From an uncultured Christensenellaceae bacterium (lineage in GTDB: Bacteria; Bacillota; Clostridia; Christensenellales; Aristaeellaceae): 64,000 nucleotides of DNA. The position numbers and the translations under genes are program-made. The stretch's first letter is position 1; every line of letters starts with the position of its first letter. Below are positions 6,074-40,718 of this stretch, in pieces. The DNA lies in the NCBI GenBank assembly GCA_905234985.1, contig CAJOJQ010000030.1:1-64000 (forward strand), written 5' to 3'. The notes below the pieces were generated by a model. It saw nothing but the letters and a program-made list of their open reading frames with translations. It did no database searches and had not been told where the DNA came from.

Positions 6074-8110
6074 ATGGCTTCCTTTATTCTTTCCCTTTCC
6101 ACGCGAATCATGGCGGATGAAAGCCTTTCCGCCGTCCGCCACGCCGCGGATATCCTGCGCCGGGACATGCGCGCGGCCCTGACGGAGGGCGGGCCGGAAA
6201 ATGTCATCCGGCTTTCCATCGACCCCGCTTTACCGGCGGAAGCCTATTCCGCCCATGTAACGCCGGAGGAAATCACCCTGCGCTGCGGCGACGATTTGGG
6301 CGCGGCCTATGCCCTGCTCTCTGTCAGCGAACGGCTGCTGGATGTGAAGCCCTTAGGCTGGTGGATGGGCTTATTGCCCAAAAAGTTAGGAAGCGTGGCC
6401 GTTTCATGCCAAACCTGGGAAAGCCCAAAGTACAAGGTGCGCTTCAGGGGCTGGTTCGTCAACGATGAGGTGCTTTTTTCCGGCTGGCACAGCGAGGAAA
6501 ACGCCCGGGCCGAGGTGTGGGAGCGGGTGTTTGAAACTGTGCTTCGCTGCGGCGGCAATATGGTGATCCCCGGCACGGACCGGGGCTTTGACGGCCACGC
6601 CCTCAATGAAATGGCGCTGGAGCGGGGCTTATGGCTCACCCAGCACCACACGGAGCTGTTGGGCGCGAAAATGTTCGCCCGGGTCTATCCCGATCTCCAG
6701 CCCTCCTATACCCTGTACCCGGACAAATACGAGGGTCTGTGGCAGGAATCCATCGACCGGTACGCGGGCAAGCGCGTGGTGTGGGCCGTGGGCTTCCGGG
6801 GCCAGGGCGACCGGGCCTTCTGGGAGGACGACGGGGAAGCGGACACTGCCGAAAAGCGCGGCGCGTTCATCGCGCGGGTCATGGAGCGGCAAATGGAGCT
6901 GGTGCGGGCAAAAGATCCCGCCGCCCATTTCTGCACCAACCTGTACGGCGAAATGATGGCGCTGTACCGGGAAGGGCACCTGCCCGTGCCGGAGGGGGTC
7001 ATCAAGCTGTGGGGCGACAACGGCTTCGGCAAAATGGTGTCCCGCCGCCAGAATAACGACAATCCCCGCACCGACGCCATGCCCGCCGCCGACGAGCCGG
7101 GCGAAAACGGCATTTATTATCACGTCAGTTTTTATGATTTGCAGGCCGCCAACCATATCACGCCCTTGCAAAACGCGCCCCAGATGGTAGCGGACGAACT
7201 GAAAACGATCCTGGATCATCACGCGGACACCCTGTGGAATGTGAACGTGGGTTCCATTTATCCCCATCCCTTCCTGCTGGATCTGGTTTCCCGCATGTGG
7301 AAAACAGGCACATACGACGCCGAGGAAGCCGCCAGGGATTTTGCCCGGCAGTATTACGGGGAGGAACAACTGGCTTTCCTGTTCACCGATTATTCGGAAA
7401 ACGCCGTTTTCTACGGCCCTCATGCCGACGACCGGGCGGGGGATCAGTATTACCATTGGCCCCTGCGGGCCCTGGCCCACGCCCTGCTTCGGGGCGAAAC
7501 GGACAGGCCCATCGACTCTTTGCGCTGGGCCGCCGAAGGGGACTTTGAACAGCAGACCCGGCATTTGGCGGCAATCGTAAAGCCAGGCGTTACCGCCTGG
7601 CGGGAATATGTGCGGAAAGCGCGAAACGCCATGGACGCGTTGGAGGACGCCGCCGTCTGCCGCCTCCGGGATCGGGAATACCTGTACGGCCTCATTCATC
7701 AGACCGGGTGCGAAGGGCTGTACAGCTTCTGCCAGGCCTGCGTTCACGCGCTGCGGGGAAATGATCTGCAAGCCTGCCTCTGGACGGACAGGGCTTTGCA
7801 ATGCCACCGGAAAGCGCTGGAAGCCATGGATCAGGTGCAGGGGCGCTTTGCCCACATTTATCGCAACGACTGTTTCTCCGGCGTGTCCGTGACGGTGCGG
7901 GTGCTGGAGGCCGTGCGGGCCTGGCTCCGCATCCGGGGCGACGGGGAATACCTGTTCAAATGGGAAAAGCAGTATCTGGTGCCCCGGGAGGAAGCGCTGC
8001 TTTCCTTGCAGTCCCACCGCACCACGCAATTGTCCGACGACGATCTCTGCCTGCGTCTCCGGGGTGAAATTCCCCTGGAAACGGCCTTTTTTGAGGGGGA
8101 TGCCAAGTGA
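6074..8110 (+). CDS. Glycoside hydrolase family 115-like (alpha-glucuronidase)
   Basis: GH115 enzymes release 4-O-methyl-glucuronic acid from xylan. The 678-residue protein has an N-terminal alpha/beta domain of the GH67/GH115 type (residues 1-95), then a barrel. Motifs include FRGWFVNDE (about 118), GFRGQGDRAFWEDDG (about 240), LWGDNGFGKM (about 312) and GIYYHVSFYD (about 345), which parallel the GH115 'R-G-x-G-D', 'W-x-D-(D/N)-N-x-G' and 'G-x-Y-Y-H-x-S' blocks. A helical segment follows. There is no signal peptide, so it acts on imported oligosaccharides. It lacks the C-terminal domain of longer (800-1000 residue) homologues. A GGAGGAATCGAGC ribosome site precedes the ATG. The stop overlaps the GTG start of the next gene. 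Confidence 0.75.
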   Translation: MASFILSLSTRIMADESLSAVRHAADILRRDMRAALTEGGPENVIRLSIDPALPAEAYSAHVTPEEITLRCGDDLGAAYALLSVSERLLDVKPLGWWMGLLPKKLGSVAVSCQTWESPKYKVRFRGWFVNDEVLFSGWHSEENARAEVWERVFETVLRCGGNMVIPGTDRGFDGHALNEMALERGLWLTQHHTELLGAKMFARVYPDLQPSYTLYPDKYEGLWQESIDRYAGKRVVWAVGFRGQGDRAFWEDDGEADTAEKRGAFIARVMERQMELVRAKDPAAHFCTNLYGEMMALYREGHLPVPEGVIKLWGDNGFGKMVSRRQNNDNPRTDAMPAADEPGENGIYYHVSFYDLQAANHITPLQNAPQMVADELKTILDHHADTLWNVNVGSIYPHPFLLDLVSRMWKTGTYDAEEAARDFARQYYGEEQLAFLFTDYSENAVFYGPHADDRAGDQYYHWPLRALAHALLRGETDRPIDSLRWAAEGDFEQQTRHLAAIVKPGVTAWREYVRKARNAMDALEDAAVCRLRDREYLYGLIHQTGCEGLYSFCQACVHALRGNDLQACLWTDRALQCHRKALEAMDQVQGRFAHIYRNDCFSGVSVTVRVLEAVRAWLRIRGDGEYLFKWEKQYLVPREEALLSLQSHRTTQLSDDDLCLRLRGEIPLETAFFEGDAK

Positions 8111-26592: not shown

Positions 26593-27807
26593 ATGAAGCA
26601 TTTGATTCAGATTCTCTCTTTGGCGATTGCCCTTTGCATGATTTTCACTTTTGCCGCCTCGGCGGAAACCGCGTCTCCCATCTATTCCGCCAGCGACCTG
26701 TTCACCAGCCGGGATTACGAACAGACCGCCGATCTGACCGGCGCGGTTTCCTACAGCGTTTCCGACGGCCAGGACATCCGCATCACCGCCGCGGGCGTGT
26801 ACGTACTCACCGGCTCCGCCTCCAACGTGACCGTGTACGTGGAAGCGGGGAAAGACGATAAGGTGCAAATCGTGCTGAACGGCGTTTCCGTGACCAACAC
26901 CAATTTCCCCGTGATCTACGTGAAGACCGCCGACAAGGTGTTCGTCACCGTCAGCGGCGACAGCGTCCTGTCCGTCACCGGTTCCTTTGCCGCCGACGGC
27001 AGCACTAAGACCGACGGCGTGATCTTTTCCAAAACCGACCTGACGCTGAACGGCACGGCGTCCCTGACCGTTACATCCACCGATAACGGCGTCGTGTGCA
27101 AGGACGACCTGAAAATCACCGGCGGCGCCTACACCGTGACCGCTTCCTCCAAGGCCATTGAGGCCAACGATTCCATCCGCGTCGCGGGCGGAGACCTGTA
27201 CCTGACTGCCGGAACGGACGGTTTGCACGCGGAGAATGACAGCGATGACACCAAAGGTTACATCTACATCGGCGGCGGCAGCCTGACCATCAGCGCCGGG
27301 GACGACGGCATTCATGCCCTGTCCGTGGTGCAGATCGACGGCGGCGCCCTGAACATCAAGGCCGCCGAGGGCATTGAAGGCACCTACATCCAATTCAACG
27401 GCGGCACGGTCAACATCCAGAGTACCGACGACGGCGTGAACGCCGCCTATAAATCCAGCGCCTACACTCCCACCGTGGAAATCAACGGCGGCGACATCAC
27501 CGTGGCCATGGGCGCGGGCGATACGGACGGCATCGACTCCAACGGCAACATCATCATGAACGGCGGCACCGTCACCGTGACCGGCAACAGCACTTTCGAC
27601 TATGACGGGGCCGCCCAGTATAACGGCGGCACCATCATCGCAAACGGCCAGCAGATCGCTTACATTCCCAACCAGATGATGGGTGGCGGCATGATGGGCG
27701 GCGGCTTCGGCGACGGCTGGGGCAACGCCAATACCAACGGCGGCTGGGGCGGCAATTTCGGCGGAGGCGGCTTCGGCGGAGGCCGGGGCGGACGCGGCGG
27801 CTGGTAA
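26593..27807 (+). CDS. Exported beta-solenoid protein, Cthe_2159-like (DUF4353)
   Basis: This is a 404-residue protein with a signal peptide (MKHLIQILSLAIALCMIFTFAASAE). Residues 45-350 consist of successive short beta turns with DGLHAEND, GGGSLTISAGDDGIHA, GGTVNIQSTDDGVNA and GAGDTDGIDSNG. These are the Asp/Gly-rich repeats of the Cthe_2159 family, whose founding member binds cellulose and polygalacturonate and coordinates calcium. The C-terminal 45 residues are a Met/Gly then Gly/Arg/Trp-rich tail (MMGGGMMGGGFGDGW...GGRGGRGGW) with no anchor motif. A polysaccharide-binding surface or extracellular role is expected. Confidence 0.85.
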   Translation: MKHLIQILSLAIALCMIFTFAASAETASPIYSASDLFTSRDYEQTADLTGAVSYSVSDGQDIRITAAGVYVLTGSASNVTVYVEAGKDDKVQIVLNGVSVTNTNFPVIYVKTADKVFVTVSGDSVLSVTGSFAADGSTKTDGVIFSKTDLTLNGTASLTVTSTDNGVVCKDDLKITGGAYTVTASSKAIEANDSIRVAGGDLYLTAGTDGLHAENDSDDTKGYIYIGGGSLTISAGDDGIHALSVVQIDGGALNIKAAEGIEGTYIQFNGGTVNIQSTDDGVNAAYKSSAYTPTVEINGGDITVAMGAGDTDGIDSNGNIIMNGGTVTVTGNSTFDYDGAAQYNGGTIIANGQQIAYIPNQMMGGGMMGGGFGDGWGNANTNGGWGGNFGGGGFGGGRGGRGGW

Positions 27808-29802: not shown

Positions 29803-32070
29803 TCATTTCAGGCAAAGGGCGATTTCCCCGCCCGCGCTGCGGTAGCTGATCAGTGCCGTTTGGCTGGCCCCGTCATACTGCCAGGAAATGTCGGTTTCAT
29901 CCGACCGGCAGGCGGCGGGAACGAAGGGCAGGCGCAGGCGGATATACACCAGCACCTGATCCGCCGCGTGGACGCGGAGGCAAAGGGAAGAATCGCCGAT
30001 TTCCGCGCTGACGATGCGGGCGGCGGTGGCGATCACGGCGAAACGGCCTTTTTCCAGCCGATCCAGATCATACAGCAGCGCCCCGTCTCCCGGATTCACC
30101 GTTTTCCGGGAAATGACAGGGTAGCCGTCCGCCAACAGATCCACGAAGCGGCCCTCGAAAGTCTTCGGGTCGTCCAGCGCGCTTTCCTCCAACACCTGGC
30201 AAATGACGTATGGACCCCGCCGGAGGGTGATGTGGTTGCTGTACGCCCAGTCCACGCCCCCCTCCCGGAGGGTGTTTTTTATCAGCGTCCGCCATTGATC
30301 GGCCTCCGCTTTTCGCAGGCAGAGGGCGGCGGGCATATGGTTCCAGACGATCACTCGACCCCGGCCCGCGGGGAAAGCGCCGTCCTCCGGCTTCCGGGGC
30401 AGGCCCAGCAGCTCAAACAGGTGCTGCATGGGGTGGGTGTACCCCTGATCCCGCCACCAGGAGCGGACGGCGTGGAAGGGATCGCCGCCGTCGCCCACGC
30501 AGATCAGGCAGCCGCCTCCGCGCACCCAGGCCGCCAGGGCGTCGTGGATGTCCGGGAACAGGGGCTTCATGAATTCGTAGCTGAGGATGGCGAAGCGGAA
30601 TTCTTTCAGATAGTCCGGGAACCGGCGCACGTTGTCCAACTGCACGGGGCGGATGGGCAGGCCGTATTTCAGCAGGGGCAGGGCCAGGCCGTAAAAGTGG
30701 GGGAAGGCGGAGCTTTCGATCAGGGTGTTCATCCCCGCCGCGTCCTGATCGAGGTTTTCCATATAGGCGCGGGAACGGGCGGACTTTTCGGCGATTTCTT
30801 CCGGGGACGCGATTTCCGAGTTTTTCACGATCAGGCTGTACAGCCCTTCTTCCGACCCGGCGGTGGGAATTTGATCCGGGAAGGCGCGCTGATAGAGGCA
30901 GGAATCCGACAGGAAAAGCCCTACCGGCTCCCGCACGCCCTCAAATTGCCAATCCGGCTGCTCCATATCCCCGAACAGCTGGAACATGCCGGAAAGGAGC
31001 GTGCGGTAGCTGTCCGGAATGGGCTTGGCGTCCGCCGCCGCGAAGCTGGTTTCGTCCTTTTCGCCGATTTTGGGCTGCACCCGGGGATAGCGGCCCTCAA
31101 ACACCCGCCGGGGCCAGGGGCAGACCTCATAATGCCACACCTGGGGATGCAGCAGGGAGGCAATGGCGGTTTTCAGATAATTGTACCGGTAGTTTTCCCA
31201 GGTGTAGGCGGGATTGTCCTCGATGGGATCGTTCAGGAACCACATCCGGCGGCCCGTGCCCCGGCTGAACTCCTGCATGACCCCGTATTCCAAATACGCC
31301 GTTTCAAAGGTGCGCTCCCGGTACAGGCCCTCGTACACGTTGGCTACCCGGCTGGTGCCCGTCCAGACCTGGGCGATGTAGCCGTCCACCGTGGGAATGC
31401 CGATCAGGCTGGCTTCCGGGCTGAGGATTTTCCATTGGGTGTAATTGAGCAGGCTGTGGGTGGGCACGTAAAAGCGCAGGTCGCGGCCATATTTTTCCAG
31501 GGCGTAGGCTTTCAGGGCGGCGCTGATACGGGCCAGGGTCTGGGCGTACAATTCCGCTTTCAGCCGGGCGCAGCGCCAATGAGCGTCTATCCCGGCGTGC
31601 TGGGGCACAAAGGGTTCTCCATACCGGGCATCGTACGCCCTTTGGAAGGCGGGGGAATACCCGCTTCGATCCCAGAACTCCGGTTCCTCCATGTGAATGG
31701 CAAGCACGCCTAAGTCCACGGCGATTTTCAGCCGTTCGATGAGATAATCCGCAAAGGCGTCGGTGGGCGTCATGTAGGGCACGCGGGGGCCGTGCAGCAC
31801 CATCTGGCCGTCCCGTTCCCGTTGGGCTTCGTCCCAGTGGTCATGGCCGTCCCAGCCGCCGTCCAGGTAATCCTGGTAATCCCCCCAGGAAATGCCCGTC
31901 ATCAGGTGTACCGGGTAGCCCGCGCCCGCGAATTGCCTGATCCGCTCCGGCATGGTCTCATCCGTGCCGTACACCATCACAAAATCACACTTGAGGTCAA
32001 TGGCCGGGGTGAGGGGCCTGCTTTCCTGATAGCCCGTTTTTTCCTCTTCGTTTTTCCGAATGTACGCCAT
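29803..32070 (-). CDS. Large glycoside-hydrolase-like protein of uncertain family
   Basis: This 755-residue protein has no signal peptide. Residues 1-400 look like a TIM barrel: KCDFVMVYGTD, GYPVHLMTGISW, VLAIHMEEPEFWDRSGY with candidate catalytic Glu near residue 137, RFYVPTHSLLNY and HPQVWHYEVCPWPRRVFEGRYP. Residues about 470-620 resemble the amidotransferase-like middle domain of GH42-type enzymes (FRFAILSYEFMKPL, GGCLICVGDGGDPF). The last 100 residues are beta-rich. The three-part order recalls GH42 beta-galactosidases, but the family cannot be fixed. It is intracellular. It lies 29 bases downstream of the binding-protein gene at the end of the surface locus, so it may be co-transcribed. 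Confidence 0.6.
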   Translation of the reverse strand: MAYIRKNEEEKTGYQESRPLTPAIDLKCDFVMVYGTDETMPERIRQFAGAGYPVHLMTGISWGDYQDYLDGGWDGHDHWDEAQRERDGQMVLHGPRVPYMTPTDAFADYLIERLKIAVDLGVLAIHMEEPEFWDRSGYSPAFQRAYDARYGEPFVPQHAGIDAHWRCARLKAELYAQTLARISAALKAYALEKYGRDLRFYVPTHSLLNYTQWKILSPEASLIGIPTVDGYIAQVWTGTSRVANVYEGLYRERTFETAYLEYGVMQEFSRGTGRRMWFLNDPIEDNPAYTWENYRYNYLKTAIASLLHPQVWHYEVCPWPRRVFEGRYPRVQPKIGEKDETSFAAADAKPIPDSYRTLLSGMFQLFGDMEQPDWQFEGVREPVGLFLSDSCLYQRAFPDQIPTAGSEEGLYSLIVKNSEIASPEEIAEKSARSRAYMENLDQDAAGMNTLIESSAFPHFYGLALPLLKYGLPIRPVQLDNVRRFPDYLKEFRFAILSYEFMKPLFPDIHDALAAWVRGGGCLICVGDGGDPFHAVRSWWRDQGYTHPMQHLFELLGLPRKPEDGAFPAGRGRVIVWNHMPAALCLRKAEADQWRTLIKNTLREGGVDWAYSNHITLRRGPYVICQVLEESALDDPKTFEGRFVDLLADGYPVISRKTVNPGDGALLYDLDRLEKGRFAVIATAARIVSAEIGDSSLCLRVHAADQVLVYIRLRLPFVPAACRSDETDISWQYDGASQTALISYRSAGGEIALCLK

Positions 32071-32099: not shown

Positions 32100-32981
32100 T
32101 TACTGCTCGTAGAAGAACAGGCCCTCGCTGGTGAGATACCGCACGTAGTTGGCGAACAGGTCCTTTATCTGCCGGGCAAATTCCGCTTCCTCCGGGCAAG
32201 GCGCGCCGTTATACCCCCCCTGGGCCAGCAGCTCCTGCCACGCACTTTCCCCGCAGGCCGCTTTCACCGCCTGCCACACGGCCAGGGAGAACGCGTCCGA
32301 CGCGCCCGCCTGGGCGAAAACGCCCTGTCCGATCCCCGGAAGATTCGCGGAGAACAGCCGCTGGTACCCCGCCGCCTCCTTCGGCAGCATGGCGGCGCTG
32401 AACACCGCGATGTCCGGCGCGCCGTTTTTCGCTTCCTCCGCGGCTTCTTCGTAATCCATGTAAAAGTTTTGGTCCACATACAGATCCTTTGTCGCTTCCA
32501 GCACCAGGTAATCGTTGTGGCTGGCTTCGATCAGGCGGGCGATGAAAAGTTCATAGGCGTTTTCCTCGGTATAGGCCAAAAGGCTCTCCGGCGTGATCTC
32601 GGCCAGGGCTTCCAGCACGGCGGGAGCGGCGTAGAAATCGCTGTCCGAGGCGGCAACCTGGGTCAAAGGCCGCAGGGCGACGCGCAGATCCTGGTCGATA
32701 TAGCCCTGCAGGGAAAGGATCATGACATCCTGACAGCACAGAAGAAGCGCTTCATCGGGATCGGGCAGGGCCAGGAAAGCGTTTGCGGCCTCGGCGATAT
32801 CGGAAAACCGCATCACCTGAACCTTCTGGCCCAGGGCCGTTTCTAACTGTCCGGCCAGATAATCGCTCATGGCCGCCTCCGCGGGGCAGTCGGCATAGGG
32901 GTCCACCAGGGTCACGTCCGCCAGGGCGGAGGACATCGAAACGACCAGGATCAGCAGCAGAATCAGGGACAGTTTTTTCAT
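32100..32981 (-). CDS. Exported binding-protein-like protein
   Basis: The product is 293 residues with a signal peptide (MKKLSLILLLILVVSMSSALA). The mature part, with AEAAMSDYLAGQLETALGQKVQVM, DEALLLCCQDVM and VALRPLTQVAASDSDFYAAP, follows the order of a TctC-like (tripartite tricarboxylate) or type-2 periplasmic binding fold. There, 'L-A-x-x-L-x-x-x-L-G-x-x-V' precedes the hinge. It lacks a lipobox, and no TctAB genes are near. The start is preceded by AGGAGAGAACACC. Its position 17 bases after the MBOAT gene suggests a role with the surface polymer rather than transport. Confidence 0.55.
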   Translation of the reverse strand: MKKLSLILLLILVVSMSSALADVTLVDPYADCPAEAAMSDYLAGQLETALGQKVQVMRFSDIAEAANAFLALPDPDEALLLCCQDVMILSLQGYIDQDLRVALRPLTQVAASDSDFYAAPAVLEALAEITPESLLAYTEENAYELFIARLIEASHNDYLVLEATKDLYVDQNFYMDYEEAAEEAKNGAPDIAVFSAAMLPKEAAGYQRLFSANLPGIGQGVFAQAGASDAFSLAVWQAVKAACGESAWQELLAQGGYNGAPCPEEAEFARQIKDLFANYVRYLTSEGLFFYEQ

Positions 32982-32998
32982 GGTGTTCTCTCCTTTGA

Positions 32999-34393
32999 TC
33001 AGAATCGGAAGTAAATGAAGGGGTTGTAGGTCGCGCCCAGCAGCAGCGCCACGCACAGGGCAAACAGCAGGATATCCCCCGCCGTGCAGCCGATTTCCGA
33101 AAGCCTTGGCGGCAGCTTTTTCCGCAGCCACGCGGCCAGGGGCAGGCAGCCCACGCAGGCGGGGATCAGCAGGAACAGGGGATACAGCGCGTCGTGATGG
33201 GAAAGTAGGAAGCCCGCCGTTGTCCCGTCGAAGCGGAACAGGCCCGCAAAAGCCGCCCCGATCTGCTCCAGGGATTCCAGGCGGAAAATGATCCATCCGC
33301 CTAACACGATCAGCAGCAGGCACACGTGGCGGAGAACGGCGGGAACCTTCATCAGCCGTTCCCTGCCCAGCAGCTTTTCAAGCAGCAGGAAAACGAAATA
33401 ATACAGCCCCCACAGGATGAAATTCCAGGAAGCGCCGTGCCACAGGCCCGTCAGCGCCCACACAGCCAGCATGTTCAGCGCCGTGCGCGCCATGCCCCGG
33501 CGGCTGCCGCCCAGGGGGATATACACGTAATCCCGGAAGCAGGAACTCAAAGAAATGTGCCATCTGCGCCAGAAATCCGTGACCGAGGAAGCGATATAGG
33601 GGTAATTGAAATTTTCCAGGAAATGAAAGCCGAACATGCGGCCCATGCCGATAGCCATATCGCTGTAACCGGAAAAATCATAATAAATTTGCAGCATGTA
33701 GGCGATCGCCCCCAGCCACAGCGCGCCGCCGGAGAGCAGCGCCGCCTGATCGAACACCGTATCGGCCAGCATGGCCATGGCGTTGGCGAACACCACCTTT
33801 TTGCCCAGGCCGATCACGAACCGGTGCAGCCCCTGGGTAAACAAATCGAAGCTCTCTTCCCGGTGATCCAGCTCCTCCGCCACCGTCTGATACCGCACGA
33901 TGGGCCCGGCCACCAGCTGGGGAAACAGGCAGATATAGGTGGCCAGCTTCAGCAGGCTCCTTTGGGGCGGCGTTTCCCGGCGGTACACGTCGGCCATGTA
34001 GCTGATGATCTGGAAGGTGAAAAAGCTGATGCCGATGGGCAAACTTACCTGCAAGGCGGGCATGGGCACGCCCAGCAGCGCTTCTAAGTTGCGCAGCACG
34101 AAGTCCCCGTACTTGAAAAAGCCGATGGCCCCCAAATCCGCGATGAGGGCGGCGGTCAGAAGCAGGCTTCGGGCCGGTTTGTTTTTCGCCCTGCCCATGG
34201 CAAGCGCCAGCCCGTAATTGATCAGGATCAGCCCGATCATCAGGAACAGGTACACCGGTTCGCCCCAGGCGTAAAACACCAGGGAAAACAGGCACAGCAC
34301 CGCGTTCTTGGCCCGGACGCCCCGCACGAGAAAATAGCAGATCAGCACGCAGGGCAGGAACACCAGCAGGAAGACCAGGCTGGAAAATACCAT
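32999..34393 (-). CDS. MBOAT-family membrane O-acyltransferase (AlgI/DltB-like)
   Basis: This 464-residue polytopic enzyme transfers acyl groups across the membrane onto extracellular polymers. Motifs include VFYAWGEPVYL, FFKYGDF, LPIGISFFTFQIISYMADVYR, FPQLVAGPIVRY, YYDFSGYSDMAIG, NFNYPYIASSVTDFWRRWHISLSSCFRDYVYIPLGG, and WHGASWNFILWG with the catalytic His. About 11 helices are present. In alginate-type systems it works with SGNH/AlgX-J partners, and the upstream overlapping gene encodes such a DHHW protein. Start ATG at 34393 overlaps the DHHW stop by one base after AGGAGGCGGATCGC. Confidence 0.95.
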   Translation of the reverse strand: MVFSSLVFLLVFLPCVLICYFLVRGVRAKNAVLCLFSLVFYAWGEPVYLFLMIGLILINYGLALAMGRAKNKPARSLLLTAALIADLGAIGFFKYGDFVLRNLEALLGVPMPALQVSLPIGISFFTFQIISYMADVYRRETPPQRSLLKLATYICLFPQLVAGPIVRYQTVAEELDHREESFDLFTQGLHRFVIGLGKKVVFANAMAMLADTVFDQAALLSGGALWLGAIAYMLQIYYDFSGYSDMAIGMGRMFGFHFLENFNYPYIASSVTDFWRRWHISLSSCFRDYVYIPLGGSRRGMARTALNMLAVWALTGLWHGASWNFILWGLYYFVFLLLEKLLGRERLMKVPAVLRHVCLLLIVLGGWIIFRLESLEQIGAAFAGLFRFDGTTAGFLLSHHDALYPLFLLIPACVGCLPLAAWLRKKLPPRLSEIGCTAGDILLFALCVALLLGATYNPFIYFRF

Positions 34394-35586
34394 CAGCGAT
34401 CCGCCTCCTGTTCCCATTCCCCGCCGAACAGGACGATATCGCCCATCATCAGCAGGGTGTCGATGTCATGCTCCCGGATGTACGCGTTCACGTCGAAGGG
34501 CTTGCCCATATCCTGCTGATAATAGCGCATATCGATGATGCAGGTCTGGTCAAAATGGTTGGCTAACAGCAGGTTGATGGGATTGGAATAGGAATCGGCG
34601 ATGACCAGCAGGTTCCGGCCATGGGAAGAACCGTTGTCCAGCAGGATCTCGCCGTAATCGCCGCCGTAGTAATAGGCGTAGTGGTTGCGCAGCTCGTCGG
34701 TGGGGAAACGATCCTTTTCATACAGGGCGGCGTGGCCGTACTGGCCCTTTTTGCCGCTGAGGGTGGTTTTGATTTTAGCGGAGGGATAGGAATACACCGA
34801 GAAAAGCTCCTCCGCGCACAGGGTTTTGGTTTGGCGGGCATAGGAACCGTTGAAAACCACATTGAACGTCCATTCCTTTTCCACCGGCAGCGTTTCCTCC
34901 TGCTCGCCCAGCAGCAGGGCGACGATCTGGCGGTAGCCCGCGTCCGCGCCCCGGCGGTTCCAGTGGTGGTCAGTCTGGTAGAAATTCTGGCAGAAGGCTT
35001 CGTAATCCGGCACGGAAAAACAGCCGTACCCGTCGGCGGCGTAGCAGGAACGGATGGCGTCAAAAAGCCCGCTGTTTTCCCCGTCGGACAGGGAAAAATC
35101 CTGGGCGCGGGAATTGCGGATGAAATAGACGTATTTTTTTACATTCTCCGCGCTGTTGAACAGTTCGGCGTTTTCAAGCATTTGCCCGGCGCACGCATCC
35201 GCCTGCCAGGGCTTTTCCACGATGCGATGATCGTCGTCGCCGTAATGATAATAGCCCGGCGTGATTTCCCGGTATTCCGCCCCGCTTTGGGGGGCTACGG
35301 AAAGCAGCAGGGTACTTTCCGCCTGATAAACGGTGTTCTGGGCGGTGAGTACCCGGTCCTTGATGTCCTCGCCGAAGGGATATTGATCCCCTAAGGCGCT
35401 TTCCAGGCCGTCCTGGAATTCGCCGGACAGAAAGGATTGCAGGGTGAGGGCGGGGAAGCGGGCCAGCGTCCGGTTTTCATTCTGGGAAACCGTCAGCTCT
35501 CCCCGAAAAAGAACGCCCAGTATCATCAAAACGGGCAGCGCACAGCCGATGATCAGCGCGTAACCCGAAATCCTGTTGTGTTTCAT
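34393..35586 (-). CDS. DHHW-family SGNH-like protein, copy 1
   Basis: The product is 397 residues with an N-terminal membrane anchor or signal (residues 7-27) and then a SGNH/AlgJ-like fold. The conserved YQTDHHWN motif is near residue 208. The serine of IADSYSNP is near 333, and the terminal segment DTLLMMGDIVLFGG is typical. DHHW proteins resemble AlgX/AlgJ acetyltransferases that accept acyl groups from MBOAT partners. This copy has an additional N-terminal 60-residue region (ENRTLARFPALTLQSFLSGEFQDGLESALGDQYPF), typical of AlgJ-type proteins and absent from copies 2 and 3. It is transcribed from a TTGACA/TACAAT promoter and coupled to the MBOAT gene. Confidence 0.85.
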   Translation of the reverse strand: MKHNRISGYALIIGCALPVLMILGVLFRGELTVSQNENRTLARFPALTLQSFLSGEFQDGLESALGDQYPFGEDIKDRVLTAQNTVYQAESTLLLSVAPQSGAEYREITPGYYHYGDDDHRIVEKPWQADACAGQMLENAELFNSAENVKKYVYFIRNSRAQDFSLSDGENSGLFDAIRSCYAADGYGCFSVPDYEAFCQNFYQTDHHWNRRGADAGYRQIVALLLGEQEETLPVEKEWTFNVVFNGSYARQTKTLCAEELFSVYSYPSAKIKTTLSGKKGQYGHAALYEKDRFPTDELRNHYAYYYGGDYGEILLDNGSSHGRNLLVIADSYSNPINLLLANHFDQTCIIDMRYYQQDMGKPFDVNAYIREHDIDTLLMMGDIVLFGGEWEQEADR

Positions 35587-35626
35587 GGTACTCCCTTCCG
35601 AATAAAATGCAGGATGAATCAAGGGT

Positions 35627-35656
35627 ATTGTATGCTCCGGGGCAAGGAGTTGTCAA
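35627..35656 (-). promoter_or_regulatory. Promoter of the DHHW1-MBOAT unit
   Basis: Minus-strand TTGACA (35656-35651), 18-base spacer and TACAAT (35632-35627), about 40 bases from the start codon. It splits the surface locus into two transcription units. Confidence 0.75.
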
Positions 35657-35686
35657 GAACCTTTCTGGCCGAATCCGGAAGGCGCT

Positions 35687-36940
35687 TCAATTTCCCGTAC
35701 CTACCAGGTCAGACGCGCCGAAGCCGATGATATCGGTGATTCCCCGCACCACGTTGTCCGACTGCTTATTCAGGATCTTGCCCATGAACACCAGGGAAGC
35801 GGAGCCGCCGCCGTCTAAATTGAAGGCGTTCACCGCGCCCAGCGCCCGCATTCTTTCCGCCAGCCAGGACAGGCGGCAGCCGTCGGAAGCGCTGATCCGG
35901 CCCGTCACGGTGAGTACCACAAAATGATTGGGCGAACGCATGCCGATGGCGCAGCGGGGATGCTTTTCCCGGGACATTTCGCCGCCGTAGCGCACCAAAA
36001 GCTGCTCCTGGCCGTCCCGGATGAGAATGGGGCCGAAGGAATAGGCGTCCCGAACGCCCAAGGCGAAAAGCGCTTCCGGCGTGGTTTCCTGGTTTTCATA
36101 CACCGCCATGGCGCCGTCCGGCAGGAAGGCCATCACATCCAAATTGGGGAAGCGGGCGGTCTTTTTGTTCACGTAAGGGGTATGGGAAATCAGTTCCCCG
36201 CCGCGGATCACGATGCCGGTGCGGCGGCTGTAAAAGGTGCGCCAGGTATAAGTATCGTCCGAAATGCCCAGCACCACATGGTTTTCATTGGCGAGATACG
36301 CCGGGGAAACGAAGGTATCGGCGGTCAGCTTGGTATAAGGCACGGAATAGGACCGGGGCAGATCGTCCCGCAGATTGACGGTGGTTTCAAACCATTGCAG
36401 CTTGTTTCTCCCCGTTTGGGTGAAGCGGCGTATTTCCACATACAGGGAATTGGAAATATAATACCACAGGCCGTCCTCATCGTTCTCGTACACGAATTCT
36501 TCTTTGCTTTCCTTAGGCAGAAAGCCTTCCTCGTCCAAGACGGGAAGCTCTGGCTGAGCGACTGGCGCGGTGGGCGCGGGGGAGGGCGTGGGCGCGGCGG
36601 TGGGGGCGGGGGTGACGGCGGCGGGAACGCAGGCGGCGGAAAAAATCAGCGCCTGCAATTCGGGCGTCGCCCTGCCCGTGGGTTCCAGGCCGTTGGCGAT
36701 CTGCAGCTCCTTGATTTTGCCTTCAAACCCGGCGGTATACCGATCCGTCGCGTTTTCGGAAGCCATATAACCCAGCTGGTACATGCGTATTTTCAGCAGA
36801 TACACGTCGTATCCGGCGTCGTCCCGTTTCAGCGTCCGGTATTGCGCATAGGACGGCGTCTGCTCGGCGACGCCTTCCGCCCACAGGACGGGAGCAAAGC
36901 AAAGGAGGATCAGAATCCATAAGGCGGCTTTGGTTTTCAT
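35687..36940 (-). CDS. Exported phosphodiester glycosidase (NAGPA family) with peptidoglycan-binding-like domain
   Basis: This 417-residue protein has a signal peptide (1-21). Residues 33-100 resemble a PG_binding_1 domain (YRTLKRDDAGYDVYLLKIRMYQLGYM...GLEPTGRATPELQALIF). A Pro/Thr/Ala linker (about 105-132) leads to the NAGPA domain (about 160-417), with RTGIVIRGGELIS, SFGPILIRDGQ, HPRCAIGMRSPNHFVVLTVTG and the family end FNLDGGGSASLVFMGK. Members cleave sugar-1-phosphodiester bonds, such as GlcNAc-1-P in wall polymers. Its place in the DHHW/CotH operon suggests trimming of a phosphodiester-linked surface glycan. Confidence 0.9.
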   Translation of the reverse strand: MKTKAALWILILLCFAPVLWAEGVAEQTPSYAQYRTLKRDDAGYDVYLLKIRMYQLGYMASENATDRYTAGFEGKIKELQIANGLEPTGRATPELQALIFSAACVPAAVTPAPTAAPTPSPAPTAPVAQPELPVLDEEGFLPKESKEEFVYENDEDGLWYYISNSLYVEIRRFTQTGRNKLQWFETTVNLRDDLPRSYSVPYTKLTADTFVSPAYLANENHVVLGISDDTYTWRTFYSRRTGIVIRGGELISHTPYVNKKTARFPNLDVMAFLPDGAMAVYENQETTPEALFALGVRDAYSFGPILIRDGQEQLLVRYGGEMSREKHPRCAIGMRSPNHFVVLTVTGRISASDGCRLSWLAERMRALGAVNAFNLDGGGSASLVFMGKILNKQSDNVVRGITDIIGFGASDLVGTGN

Positions 36941-36967
36941 GCTGCGCGCCTCTCCTTCCCCATGATA

Positions 36968-38638
36968 TCACCGGCCCCACTGCTGATCCAGAAAGGCCAG
37001 CCGTTTTTCAATAAAGTTCCGCAGGTACTGCACGTTGGCGGCCGGATCGCTGCCGGTTTGCGTATTGAAATTGGTCGCCCGGTTCTGGGCGATGGGCCAG
37101 CGCACGTTGTCCATGGCGGCGGACGCCTGAATTTCGGCGGCATACGCGTCCAGCGACAGAAGCCGCCCCTCCGGATCGGTTTCCCGGCCCAGCAGGATGC
37201 GCAGCGCCGGGGCGTATACCAGCCGGTACTGCTCCACGACTTCGCTTTTGAAATCGGCGAGCTTCATGGCCCGCGGGAACCACAGATAGGGCTGGGACTG
37301 ATCGGTGCAGATGTAAAACTGCCGGGGCTTGTTATATGATTCATTGGCCCCTAAGATATTGTCCTGATCCCACACCGGGGCGCAGTAAACCAGGGGATCT
37401 TTTTCGTCCGTGTTTTTGTAAAAGTACGGCTTCTGGCCGTCGTAATCCGCCAGCACCTCCGCCAGCAGGTACCGGTGGACGAAGGTGGTTTTGTCCAGCA
37501 GGTCCGACCAGCGTTTGCCCGTGGCGGGATCGACGCCGTCGGCGGAAAACAGGGCGTTTTCGATTTGCTGGAACAGGGCGCTCGCGTATTCCACCTGCCG
37601 CTGGGAGGCGTATTTGGGTTCGTCAAAGGAAAACGCCTGCCCCCTGGATGTGACGAAGCCGCTCTTTTCCCAGGCGTAGTACACGCGGGAATTGGCTAAG
37701 ATCAGGTAGCCCCCGCTGACGTCCTCCGGATCGTTTTCGACGCGGGAACCCTTGCGGGCGTTCAGGGCGTAGAGCCGGTCGCCGAAGGCGGGAAAGCTCT
37801 CCAGCGGCGCGGCGTTGGCTTTTTCGGTGCGCTTTTCCAGGCTGTCGATGTTCAGGCGGTCCGGGTCGATCTCGCATTTTTCGGCGAGCAGGAAGCTGCC
37901 GTAATACTGATGGTTCACGTACAGATCCACCGGCTGCGTACCCGGCACGAAGGAATACACGCCCGCGTAACGGGCGACGGCGTAGGCCACGGTGTTTCGC
38001 AGGAGGGATTTATCCAGATAATTGGCCAGCAGCACCCATTTCCGGTCGGCGTTCATGCCCAAAAGGGGCGCCGCCGTTTCCAGCTTGATCTGGAAGGATT
38101 TCTTGGGGTAGTAAAACGACGCGTTGCCCCTGGTGCGGATATAGGTGAGCGCGCCGCCGTACGCATGGGAGCCGTCGGCGGCAGTGACGACGCATTGCCC
38201 GGCTTCCCGCACGGTCTTATCGGCTTTGATGGCGTCCAGGCCCTCGGAAGCGGTGGTCAGGAACACCGCCGGGATGTTCTGCGACTGCATCACCCGCAGG
38301 GTGAAGCCGCCGCCCTTGAATTTTACGTCCGCCGTGCTTCCCGCCCGAAGGGAAACCGTGTCTCCGCTTTGGCAGGCTTTGCCGTTCAGGGTGATTTGGG
38401 ACGCGCCGGTAAAATACACGCAAAGCGCTTCGCTGTTCCATCCTGCCGGAAGAAACAGGAAGCGCTGGCTGTTCATCCGGTACACCGTCACAGCGTCGCA
38501 GGGAAGCGCGCCCTCCGAAGTCTTTGCCTCGCCATCCGCGGACAGGAAATACAGGGAAGGGGCGTCGGCAAGGGCAGAGGAAGAAAAGGCGGGCAGCAGG
38601 GCCGTCAGGACAAGCAGAAACAGCAGCGTTTTTTTCAT
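36968..38638 (-). CDS. Exported CotH-family kinase
   Basis: The product is 556 residues with a signal peptide (MKKTLLFLLVLTALLPAFSSSALA). A beta domain (25-135) precedes the CotH kinase fold. The fold shows TYIRTRGNASFYYPKKSFQIKLE near 163, WVLLANYLDKSLLRNTVAY near 200, VDLYVNHQYYGSFLLAEKCEI near 235, and the catalytic-type VWDQDNILG near 425, where spore-coat CotH has a D-x-D metal motif. CotH proteins phosphorylate secreted proteins or glycans. The ATP source outside the membrane is unresolved in the family. The gene lies between DHHW copy 2 and the NAGPA gene. Confidence 0.85.
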   Translation of the reverse strand: MKKTLLFLLVLTALLPAFSSSALADAPSLYFLSADGEAKTSEGALPCDAVTVYRMNSQRFLFLPAGWNSEALCVYFTGASQITLNGKACQSGDTVSLRAGSTADVKFKGGGFTLRVMQSQNIPAVFLTTASEGLDAIKADKTVREAGQCVVTAADGSHAYGGALTYIRTRGNASFYYPKKSFQIKLETAAPLLGMNADRKWVLLANYLDKSLLRNTVAYAVARYAGVYSFVPGTQPVDLYVNHQYYGSFLLAEKCEIDPDRLNIDSLEKRTEKANAAPLESFPAFGDRLYALNARKGSRVENDPEDVSGGYLILANSRVYYAWEKSGFVTSRGQAFSFDEPKYASQRQVEYASALFQQIENALFSADGVDPATGKRWSDLLDKTTFVHRYLLAEVLADYDGQKPYFYKNTDEKDPLVYCAPVWDQDNILGANESYNKPRQFYICTDQSQPYLWFPRAMKLADFKSEVVEQYRLVYAPALRILLGRETDPEGRLLSLDAYAAEIQASAAMDNVRWPIAQNRATNFNTQTGSDPAANVQYLRNFIEKRLAFLDQQWGR

Positions 38639-38674
38639 ATACTCCCTCGCAATGCCGGAAACCGGGACGCCCGC

Positions 38675-39667
38675 TTACTTGATCGAAAAGGGCTGCATGA
38701 AATACCGGAAATCGCCCATGCACAGCACCGTGTCGATCTGGTTGTTTTTCAGGTATTTCTGAATGTGGAAATCACTGTTCATGCGCAGCTTATAATACCG
38801 GGGATCAACGGAATAAATGCGGTTGAAATGCTGGGCCAGCAGCAATGTGACGGCGTTGGAATAGGAATTGCTGATCAAAAGCAGATTGGATTTCTCCGGC
38901 TGATTGGTGTCGATGATCAGCTCGCCCGCGTCGCCGCCGTAGAAAGCGCCGTAATGATTGTAAACGGTGATGCGGGGATACTTTCCCTTGAAATATTTGT
39001 CCGCCTTCCCGTAGCTTTTTTCAGGGCCGCCGTTGATTTTCACGGTATAATCCCGCATGCCGTCGAAGCGGTAAACGGTGAACAGCTCGTCGGATTGGGA
39101 ATAGCCTAACTTGGCGTTGAAAGCGCCGTTGAAGGGAGCCTCCTCAAACACCACCGTTTCCGCCGGGACCATCAGCGGCTCGTCCTCCCCGAAGATCATG
39201 CGAATGATGTCGCAGTAGCCCTGGTAGGAACCCTTATAATTCCAGTGCTGATCGGTCTTGTAAAACCAGTTCAGAAAATCCTCCCCCTTTTCCAGGGCCA
39301 GGGTGCCGACGCCGTCGGCCTCATACTGCTCCTTGATGAGGGTGAACACCTCGTTTTCCCCGCTCAGATCGCTGTTCAGGTTCACCGAACGGGGGCTTTC
39401 GATGAAATACACGTATTTTTTCACGCCGCCGCCCAGGGGCACGTATTCATTCAGCTGGGCGGCGTTTTTGCGAACGGTGTTCAGATACTCGGGGATGAGG
39501 AACTCCCGCCAGCTTTCCACCAGATAGCCGGTATTGCCCAGGCGGTACAGGCCCTTGCCCCGGGCGCTGTATTCAAAGGTCCAGCCGCCTTCCGGTTCCT
39601 CGGCGGACGCGGGAAGCAGGGCGCACAGCAGCGCCGCCGCCAACAAAGCGCAGAGCAGTCTTTTCAT
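38675..39667 (-). CDS. DHHW-family SGNH-like protein, copy 2 (DQHW variant)
   Basis: The product is 330 residues with a signal peptide (MKRLLCALLAAALLCALLPASA). The mature domain has VYFIESPRSVNLNSDLSGENEV, FYKTDQHWNYKGSYQGY near residue 158, YGGDAGELIIDT, LLLISNSYSNAVTLLLAQHF near 263, and the terminal CMGDFRYFMQPF. The motif reads DQHW instead of DHHW, so the first His is replaced by Gln while the second His and the Ser are kept. GAGGCGCTTT precedes the ATG. It lies 11 bases after copy 3. Confidence 0.85.
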   Translation of the reverse strand: MKRLLCALLAAALLCALLPASAEEPEGGWTFEYSARGKGLYRLGNTGYLVESWREFLIPEYLNTVRKNAAQLNEYVPLGGGVKKYVYFIESPRSVNLNSDLSGENEVFTLIKEQYEADGVGTLALEKGEDFLNWFYKTDQHWNYKGSYQGYCDIIRMIFGEDEPLMVPAETVVFEEAPFNGAFNAKLGYSQSDELFTVYRFDGMRDYTVKINGGPEKSYGKADKYFKGKYPRITVYNHYGAFYGGDAGELIIDTNQPEKSNLLLISNSYSNAVTLLLAQHFNRIYSVDPRYYKLRMNSDFHIQKYLKNNQIDTVLCMGDFRYFMQPFSIK

Positions 39668-39678
39668 AAAGCGCCTCC

Positions 39679-40656
39679 TCAATGCAGCTGCTTTCCGTAA
39701 AGGAAAAGGGAAACGTCGCCCAAGATCAGCACCTTGTCGATCTGATGCTCCGCAAGGTATTCCCGGATTTTCATGGATTTGCCGGTCTGGGTCATGTATT
39801 CCCGCAAATCCACCACGTAGGTTTTATGGAAATGGGCGGCCAGCAGATCACGCACGGAATGGGAATAGGAATTGGACAGCACCAGCAGGTTTTCCTTATC
39901 CTCCATACCAGTATCGTAAACCAGCTCGCCCTGGTCTCCGCCATAGAAGATATCAAAATGGGCGGCGATTTCGTCCTTGGAATATTTTCCGGCAAAATAC
40001 TGCTTCTGGCGGCCAACGGTTTTCTTTTTGCCGTTCACCGTCAGCGTGATTTCCGGCAGCTCATAGCGATACACGGCAAATTTCTGGGTGGCGTTGTGAA
40101 TCCCCGTCCGCAGGGAGTAAGAGCCGTTGTACAGGATATCGAACACCACTTCCTCCACCGGCTGATAGGGCGTTTCCTCATCGCCCAGCAGCAGGCGCAC
40201 CATGTCCTCGTAGCCCTGCTGCGCGCCAACGTGATTCCAGTGGTGATCCGTCTGGTAAAAGAGGCGCATGTAGGTCTCGAAGCTGTCGATGTTCAGGCAG
40301 GCGGCGTGATCCACGCAGGTGAGGCTTTCGCACAGGCTGGTATAGATATCGTTGGGTCCGCTTAAATCCCTGGTAAAGTCGATGCTGCGGGAATTGTTGA
40401 CGAAATAAAAATACACGTCCACATCGTCGCCGGAAAGGAATTGATTGTAGTTATTCACATAATCGGCGATTTGGTCGCGGAATTTGCCCTCCACGTCGTA
40501 GCGGTATTCCACCTGATAGTCCTGATCGCCGTAGAGATACACATTCTGGGTACCCCTGGCTTTCCGGTATTCCGCCGGGACTTCCGCCGCCAGCGCGGAA
40601 ACGGTTCCCAAACAGCACAAAAGCGCCGCCAGCGCCGCCAGACACCGTTTGACCAT
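39679..40656 (-). CDS. DHHW-family SGNH-like protein, copy 3
   Basis: The product is 325 residues with a signal peptide (MVKRCLAALAALLCCLGTVSALA). YFVNNSRSIDFTRDLSGPNDIY, FYQTDHHWNHVGAQQGYEDM (about 142), NGSYSLRTG, YGGDQGELVYDT, LLVLSNSYSHSVRDLLAAHF (about 260) and ILGDVSLFLYG follow the same order as copies 1 and 2. The three proteins are clear paralogues but differ outside the motifs, so they may act on different positions of one polymer. It is first in its transcription unit, behind a consensus promoter and AAGGAGGATTCG. Confidence 0.85.
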   Translation of the reverse strand: MVKRCLAALAALLCCLGTVSALAAEVPAEYRKARGTQNVYLYGDQDYQVEYRYDVEGKFRDQIADYVNNYNQFLSGDDVDVYFYFVNNSRSIDFTRDLSGPNDIYTSLCESLTCVDHAACLNIDSFETYMRLFYQTDHHWNHVGAQQGYEDMVRLLLGDEETPYQPVEEVVFDILYNGSYSLRTGIHNATQKFAVYRYELPEITLTVNGKKKTVGRQKQYFAGKYSKDEIAAHFDIFYGGDQGELVYDTGMEDKENLLVLSNSYSHSVRDLLAAHFHKTYVVDLREYMTQTGKSMKIREYLAEHQIDKVLILGDVSLFLYGKQLH

Positions 40657-40688
40657 ACGAACGAATCCTCCTTAAAAATGTCAAACGA

Positions 40689-40718
40689 ATTATAGCATAG
40701 GGGCGGCGCGAATGTCAA
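40689..40718 (-). promoter_or_regulatory. Promoter of the DHHW3-DHHW2-CotH-NAGPA unit
   Basis: Minus-strand perfect TTGACA (40718-40713), 18-base spacer and perfect TATAAT (40694-40689), 33 bases from the start codon. Expression is likely strong. Confidence 0.85.

Follow-up and report, generated by a model that had tools for sequence, protein, structure and literature searches.

In alginate acetylation by AlgI-AlgJ-AlgX, a single MBOAT is accompanied by more than one SGNH protein, and the same is true of a gene block in the stretch of DNA analysed here, 64,000 nucleotides of contig CAJOJQ010000030.1 from an uncultured Christensenellaceae bacterium of the family Aristaeellaceae (hereafter the window). 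Seven genes within 32100-40718 encode three DHHW proteins, a CotH-family protein, an NAGPA protein, an MBOAT and a TctC-like exported protein. A first-pass annotation had taken all seven as one surface-polymer modification system with a parallel in AlgI-AlgJ-AlgX. Judged by gene order in related genomes, the block is instead two separable modules: module A, made up of the DHHW, MBOAT and TctC-like genes, and module B, the CotH-NAGPA pair, which is also found at other loci without DHHW genes. We consider it probable that module A O-acylates an envelope glycan and that module B is a separate, recurrent pair placed inside it. The alginate parallel is apt in chemistry, but PatA1/PatB1 are closer kin. 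The window DHHWs score 17.7, 16.9 and 24.4 bits against an ALGX cut-off of 26.5 bits, and the block contains no alginate genes.

As described in the relevant sections of PMC9487903, PatA1/PatB1 of Bacillus cereus, which O-acetylate the secondary cell wall polysaccharide, likewise consist of an MBOAT and an SGNH partner of the DHHW family. The TDHHW motif, D-x-R motif and catalytic Ser of PatB1 recur among the window DHHWs. Module A differs from PatA1/PatB1 in having up to three DHHWs, in placing their genes ahead of the MBOAT gene, and in the TctC-like gene that comes after it. A C-terminal F-x-Y-x-x-F tyrosine motif and a relay through an SGNH serine, set out for PatA/PatB and Dlt (DltB-DltX-DltD) in the relevant part of PMC12148441, are common to module A, where the relay is predicted; PatA acetylates itself on the Tyr of the motif, which then serves as donor to the SGNH partner. 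The motif is on DltX in Dlt, whereas module A carries it on the MBOAT and has, in addition, an incomplete second tail (FXY) at the end of the TctC-like protein. The clostridial ccsZABHI cellulose locus also has an MBOAT/DHHW pair, CcsH/CcsI (relevant part of PMC7710045), but the window block has no synthase gene.

The other families also have described members. CotH kinases (B. cereus, 5jda; B. subtilis CotH, relevant part of PMC7821199) have the same fold as the window CotH and Asp residues in matching motifs, but the window protein has a signal-peptide-like start, an extra N-terminal part and an NAGPA partner. NAGPA/DUF2233 phosphodiester glycosidases share PF09992 and NLDGGGS with the window NAGPA, which differs in its PG_binding_1 domain and in lying beside CotH (elsewhere it is fused to CotH). 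TctC receptors of tripartite tricarboxylate transporters are homologous to the TctC-like protein over its whole length, but the latter has DHHW and MBOAT neighbours, is usually shorter (<300 aa versus ~330) and ends in the tail EGLFFY.

Organization of the locus

The seven genes are closely packed and all on the minus strand (open reading frame list and Pfam scan of the window), and the features are as follows.

40689..40718, minus strand: promoter-like site P1, upstream of DHHW1; TTGACA-18-TATAAT, 12/12 consensus
39679..40656, minus strand: DHHW1, predicted exported SGNH/DHHW acyltransferase paralogue; PF14286 38.1 bits, alignment with PatB1 (5v8e)
40237-40251, 39862-39876 and 39799-39810, minus strand: DHHW1 motifs TDHHW, SNS serine block and DLRE, respectively, read from the sequence
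38675..39667, minus strand: DHHW2, predicted exported paralogue with TDQHW at 39242-39256; PF14286 19.2 bits (below cut-off), alignment and tree
36968..38638, minus strand: CotH-family kinase-like protein; PF08757 105.1 bits, fold match to 5jda
35687..36940, minus strand: predicted NAGPA phosphodiester glycosidase with PG_binding_1, NLDGGGS at 35801-35821; PF09992 101.2 bits, PF01471 32.7 bits
35627..35656, minus strand: promoter-like site P2, upstream of DHHW3; TTGACA-18-TACAAT, 11/12 consensus
34393..35586, minus strand: DHHW3, predicted DHHW acyltransferase with anchor-like N-terminus and motifs ADS, TDHHW and DMRY; PF14286 31.8 bits
32999..34393, minus strand: MBOAT, His in LWHGASW at 33425-33445, putative acyl-shuttle motif FIYFRF at 33002-33019; PF03062 101.0 bits
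32100..32981, minus strand: TctC-like exported protein, conserved tail EGLFFYEQ at 32103-32126; profile homology to TctC

The gene content and the two consensus promoters given by the first-pass annotation are thus borne out by the reading frames, Pfam matches and promoter scores. From DHHW1 through DHHW2, CotH, NAGPA, DHHW3 and MBOAT to the TctC-like gene, the intergenic gaps are 11, 36, 27, 100, -1 and 17 nucleotides (nt). By eye, the starts of DHHW1, DHHW2, CotH, NAGPA and the TctC-like protein resemble signal peptides (charged start, hydrophobic stretch, small residues), and the N-terminus of DHHW3 looks like an uncleaved anchor. The region holds 11 promoter-like sites versus 5.5 (standard deviation 2.5) in shuffled sequences, and a terminator scan gave no excess (17 sites versus 16.2 in shuffles). 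Both P1 and P2 hexamers are identical in genome G025, a near relative of the window's own genome, G000; this says little because G025 is ~94% identical in DNA throughout. No glycosyltransferase, polymerase or flippase family was matched in Pfam within the seven genes, the 755-aa gene downstream or the two divergent genes, as the earlier annotation had it. In its 3.57 Mb, spread over 97 contigs, the window genome has ~10 CotH, ~12 NAGPA, ~5 DHHW and ~3 MBOAT genes; since these families are so common in it, their adjacency needs testing.

Distribution of module A and origin of the block

Module A has the order DHHW (none to two genes), DHHW3, MBOAT, TctC-like, and is present in 13/308 genomes of the family, from five genera. 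Six belong to the window's genus (G000, G025, G017, G001, G010 and G018) and the others are G123, G875, G920 and four of a single genus (G814, G806, G824 and G826). The final neighbourhood counts for module A and MBOAT loci rest on searches of all open reading frames. The TctC-like gene has a DHHW gene beside it in 13/13 loci and the MBOAT gene in 12/13. All three DHHWs occur in G000, G025, G017 and G875; the combination of several DHHWs and a single MBOAT, already pointed out for the window, is thus common to two genera. Ordinary MBOAT loci of the order are different: among 40 opened out of ~100 rows, mostly top-ranked, 32 have one DHHW gene immediately behind the MBOAT in the same orientation, and neither the TctC-like gene nor CotH was found in any (0/40 each).

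The CotH-NAGPA pair, together with P2, sits between DHHW2 and DHHW3, and is inside module A in only two of the 13 loci, G000 and G025. DHHW, CotH, NAGPA and MBOAT genes therefore occur together only in the window genome and one near relative, so the co-occurrence test suggested at first pass does not support a single seven-gene system. In G017 and G875, the three DHHW genes are contiguous with no CotH or NAGPA in between (DHHW2 and DHHW3 are 21 nt apart in G017). Insertion of CotH-NAGPA in the G000/G025 lineage would be the simplest account, because other module A loci have neighbouring DHHWs without the pair; loss elsewhere would be less economical. The pair was rejected as a fixed part of a DHHW-MBOAT cassette on the same count of module A genomes.

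That all seven genes nevertheless form one system that coordinates acylation and phosphorylation with phosphodiester cleavage on one polymer, CotH-NAGPA having joined module A through a shared acceptor, seems to us rather unlikely. The genes are collinear, tightly spaced and kept in G025, the pair lies inside the DHHW set and not beside it, NAGPA bears a wall-binding domain, and in three of the 40 ordinary MBOAT loci (L232, L239 and L246, from G190, G295 and G057 of one genus) an NAGPA gene lies ~2 kb from the MBOAT-DHHW pair on the same strand, which leaves room for a second link, between NAGPA and acylation. However, in the stretches fetched (3.6 to 19.9 kb), the other 11 module A loci have no CotH, and among them NAGPA is found only in G875, 5.5 kb away on the opposite strand. 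G017 does have a CotH-NAGPA pair, but on another contig than module A. The conservation in G025 is likewise not independent, as this genome is collinear over the whole stretch, flanks included, so that sharing the block does not yet argue for selection on it as a unit.

DHHW proteins and MBOAT

With a Pfam cut-off of 25 bits for PF14286, DHHW1 and DHHW3 score above and DHHW2 below, and DHHW2 is assigned to the family because alignment and tree place it there. In a PDB sequence search DHHW1 aligns with B. cereus PatB1 (5v8e, E 5.5e-6). D137, H139 and S263 (DHHW1 numbering) are invariant across 25 aligned DHHWs, and the Ser-Asp-His triad (Asp and second His of TDHHW, plus the serine) is kept in 27/27 DHHWs of the tree set. 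The corresponding key residues of PatB1 are S337, D200 and H202, with R359 (relevant part of PMC9487903). All three window DHHWs have the D-x-R oxyanion Arg motif in addition to the triad, as expected of PatB-type partners, and DHHW3 has the most canonical motifs (ADS, TDHHW, DMRY). In the tree of 27 proteins, DHHW1, DHHW2 and DHHW3 fall into three separate clades with support of 100/99 or better; support is 100/99 for the DHHW2 clade and for the DHHW3 clade of 12 proteins. DHHW2 has Gln in place of the first His (TDQHW), a change found only in the window and G025 among the 27. Replacing this His with Ala in PatB1 keeps half of the esterase activity and abolishes transferase activity (relevant part of PMC9487903). 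DHHW2 may therefore have turned into an esterase, since Gln replaces the residue that PatB1 needs for transfer.

A stand-alone DHHW gene is also present on contig C1 of the window's own genome (L070, 9356-12152), after a polysaccharide deacetylase gene with bacterial SH3 domains; no MBOAT was detected in the 19.5-kb stretch around it. Locus L145 of G025 has the same deacetylase and DHHW gene pair, by length and start.

The window MBOAT aligns with DltB (6bug, E 2.1e-23), the His of LWHGASW aligned with that of DltB. Every MBOAT row listed in a comparison of tails ends in F-x-Y-x-x-F, and the window protein thus has both the catalytic His and the C-terminal motif of PatA-type MBOATs. Catalytic residues and shuttle-like tail together support the earlier proposal of O-acylation: the MBOAT and DHHWs are probably a PatA/PatB-like O-acylation system.

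TctC-like protein

The seventh gene had been labelled a generic binding protein, and while a small exported protein is indeed present, profile comparison identifies it as a full-length TctC homologue (hhalign against the TctC profile, prob 99.8, E 1.7e-28, over the whole length); the generic label was rejected. It has no significant Pfam match (best of 7 members scanned, 20.2 bits versus a TctC cut-off of 27), and PDB sequence searches and NCBIfam found nothing useful. As a single query, the window sequence matched only its own genome among 391 of the class. The TctC-like profile gave 42 rows and matched 39/308 family genomes, 13 at >130 bits and 26 at <65 bits. Of these, 13 strong and 4 weak loci were opened, and all four weak ones are TctC above the Pfam cut-off, with TctB confirmed adjoining in two. 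Complete TctC-like copies are 24-50% identical to the window copy, except that of G025 at 92%.

The tail T-x-EGLFFY is invariant in 12/12 complete copies, a count that leaves out the G826 copy, cut by a contig end. The control set was 2042 distinct complete gene calls (window and L051-L307), of which 82 terminate in F-x-Y with no more than three residues behind it. Of these, 70 have the exact F-x-Y-x-x-F end that matches the MBOAT tail (not each one a confirmed MBOAT), 8 are TctC-like (the gene caller missed some copies) and 4 are others. No FXY-type tail occurs in 21 TctC rows (17 distinct, one cut short).

The protein may be an acceptor binder or a second acyl carrier. Its full-length homology to TctC would also fit an ordinary orphan substrate-binding protein, merely co-transcribed and serving a transporter encoded elsewhere. 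We regard this as quite unlikely, given its constant association with DHHW and near-constant association with MBOAT genes and its derived, invariant tail that TctC rows lack.

CotH-NAGPA pair

An AlphaFold2 (AF2) model of the window CotH (predicted local distance difference test, pLDDT, 92.2) has an extra N-terminal beta-rich part, and its best fold match is B. cereus CotH (5jda, E 1.5e-12, template modelling score 0.71 by target and 0.48 by query). A phmmer search of the PDB missed CotH and a profile search found it. With its PF08757 match and CotH fold, the protein belongs to the family named at first pass, and phosphotransfer is predicted for it. The candidate catalytic residues D400, D424 and D426, as well as K179, are invariant in 38 CotH sequences. 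NAGPA is above the PF09992 cut-off and has NLDGGGS; its PDB matches are 5h3k (E 3.6e-8), 3ohg (DUF2233, E 2e-7) and NAGPA-named chains from E 3.6e-4.

The CotH-NAGPA link posited earlier is supported by recurrent neighbours and three fusions. A CotH profile scan of named genomes gave 79 loci, whose flanks were no longer than 8 kb and in many cases less. In nine of these an NAGPA gene stands no more than 300 bases from CotH, and in one the two are fused, versus ~0.1 neighbours expected at an NAGPA density of 2.4 per Mb (24 family genomes, among the NAGPA matches listed); this density comes from the window's family and many of the 79 loci from other families, and two of the ten paired loci (L149, L159) come from contigs that had contributed their CotH to the query alignment. 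In the 24 genomes, which were hand-picked, 15 neighbours within 2.5 kb were counted by eye versus 1.4 expected from hand-entered gene totals, but 13 of them fall in six genomes whose pairs were known beforehand (G000, G014, G017, G018, G025 and G027; 0.8 expected). The 79-locus count is freer of this pre-selection bias. G000 and G025 share three orthologous pairs. All three fusions (L056, L057 and L168) have CotH first, and two of them, like the window NAGPA, include PG_binding_1; unfused neighbours occur in both gene orders. On a quick 99-row CotH tree, where some "solo" labels belong to genes close to a contig end, the paired state changes 11 times, at least 9 of these forced by starred branches, and is clustered (17.6 changes in shuffles). 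The link is thus strong in part of the window's genus and some other Clostridia, and is not seen in many genomes.

Alternatively, CotH could be a binding or structural protein with a kinase fold and NAGPA a wall hydrolase, the pair forming an adhesin or degradative unit. Exported kinases have no obvious ATP, and the genome is rich in both families; both points fit this alternative. We nonetheless judge it unlikely, as the invariant Asp and Lys residues and the match to a B. cereus CotH structure with Mg/AMP argue against it.

Other genes were observed around such pairs. In L063, a PIG-L type de-N-acetylase (6566-7795) directly follows an NAGPA-CotH pair. On contig C43 of the window's own genome (L067, 10700-15961), PGA_cap, RCC1-repeat and BspA leucine-rich-repeat proteins lie behind a CotH-NAGPA pair. 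A Ruminococcus genome (L222, 3630-11822) has adjoining, very large NAGPA (1354 aa) and CotH (1286 aa) proteins.

Proposed mechanism

Wall-glycan O-acylation with an added phosphate-related step is the most likely function of the block. The MBOAT would draw on acyl-CoA for an acyl group (probably acetyl), carry this through the membrane to the Tyr of its own tail, and pass it to the active-site serine of anchored DHHW3. Exported DHHW1 and DHHW2 would transfer acyl groups to further sites, DHHW2 perhaps removing them instead. The TctC-like protein would be a dedicated relay accessory that binds the acceptor or carries acyl on its C-terminal FFY. Module B would have come between DHHW2 and DHHW3 together with a promoter; CotH would likely phosphorylate an exported glycan or protein, and NAGPA, held to the wall by its peptidoglycan-binding domain, would likely cut sugar-1-phosphate diesters.

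Several observations weigh against this combination of module A acylation and an inserted module B. For the DHHWs, the residue before the serine is N in DHHW1 and DHHW2 and D in PatB1, DHHW2 lacks the first His, and D-x-R is missing from one partner DHHW of G920. G824 has a DHHW and TctC-like gene with no adjoining MBOAT detected, and NAGPA lies near three of the 40 ordinary MBOAT-DHHW pairs, so that it may have a tie to acylation as well. The acceptor is a guess, because no polymer locus adjoins. The TctC-like tail is FXY followed by 0-2 residues and not the DltX-type F-x-Y-x-x-F, and in the profile alignment it replaces the normal TctC end rather than extending it; it is thus a derived end that may amount to no more than a structural change. 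For this protein the AF2 model has low confidence (pLDDT 39.9). For module B, the part of the PDB profile alignment spanning the candidate catalytic Asp pair of CotH scores just 3.4 bits, and we know of no ATP source for an exported CotH. NAGPA was not detected in the fetched flanks of 69/79 CotH loci, and the 18 hand-picked genomes without previously known pairs gave two neighbours (G003, G034) versus 0.6 expected.

A more elaborate joint reading, which we hold to be very doubtful, would make the TctC-like protein a soluble second acyl shuttle, the fold of a transporter receptor having been taken over for polymer acylation. Its EGLFFY Tyr would be loaded by MBOAT or DHHW3 and supply the unanchored DHHW1 and DHHW2, and a single MBOAT could then serve several sites. 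CotH-NAGPA would at the same time be a surface phosphate-tagging pair, a distant functional analogue of GlcNAc-1-phosphate transfer and uncovering in lysosomal targeting.

Flanking genes

The divergent YdcF and DUF3089 genes, suggested at first pass as possible members, were rejected: they are matched in two of the 13 module A loci, those of the window and G025 (stretches of 3.6 to 19.9 kb fetched outside the window). A further gene had been left out of the first-pass annotation.

29803-32070, minus strand: 755-aa gene with no Pfam family, 29 nt after the TctC-like gene

The protein has no signal-peptide-like start, and searches of Pfam, NCBIfam and PDB sequences gave nothing for it. Among the 13 loci, in the same fetched stretches, its gene adjoins module A solely in the window and G025. 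At 26593-27807 on the plus strand, the window also has a 404-aa open reading frame with a glycine-rich end.

Novelty and implications

The relevant sections of PMC12419801 and PMC11488536 mention NAGPA in combination with further surface domains; the former paper does not contain CotH, and the relevant part of the latter does not name it. In the literature searched, with subscription journals mostly outside its reach, there was no description of a CotH-NAGPA link, of a CotH kinase with DHHW proteins, or of a TctC-like accessory of acylation. The chemistry of module A is thus known in kind, and the TctC-like accessory and DHHW-first order appear new as far as these searches reach.

If the proposed mechanism is correct, module A would reveal the way in which a single membrane acyltransferase supplies several transferases outside the cell, and the TctC-like protein would be a candidate accessory of a kind not met in that literature. 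Through the CotH-NAGPA link, the exported CotH kinases found in gut bacteria gain a partner enzyme and with it a testable class of substrates, the sugar-phosphate diesters.

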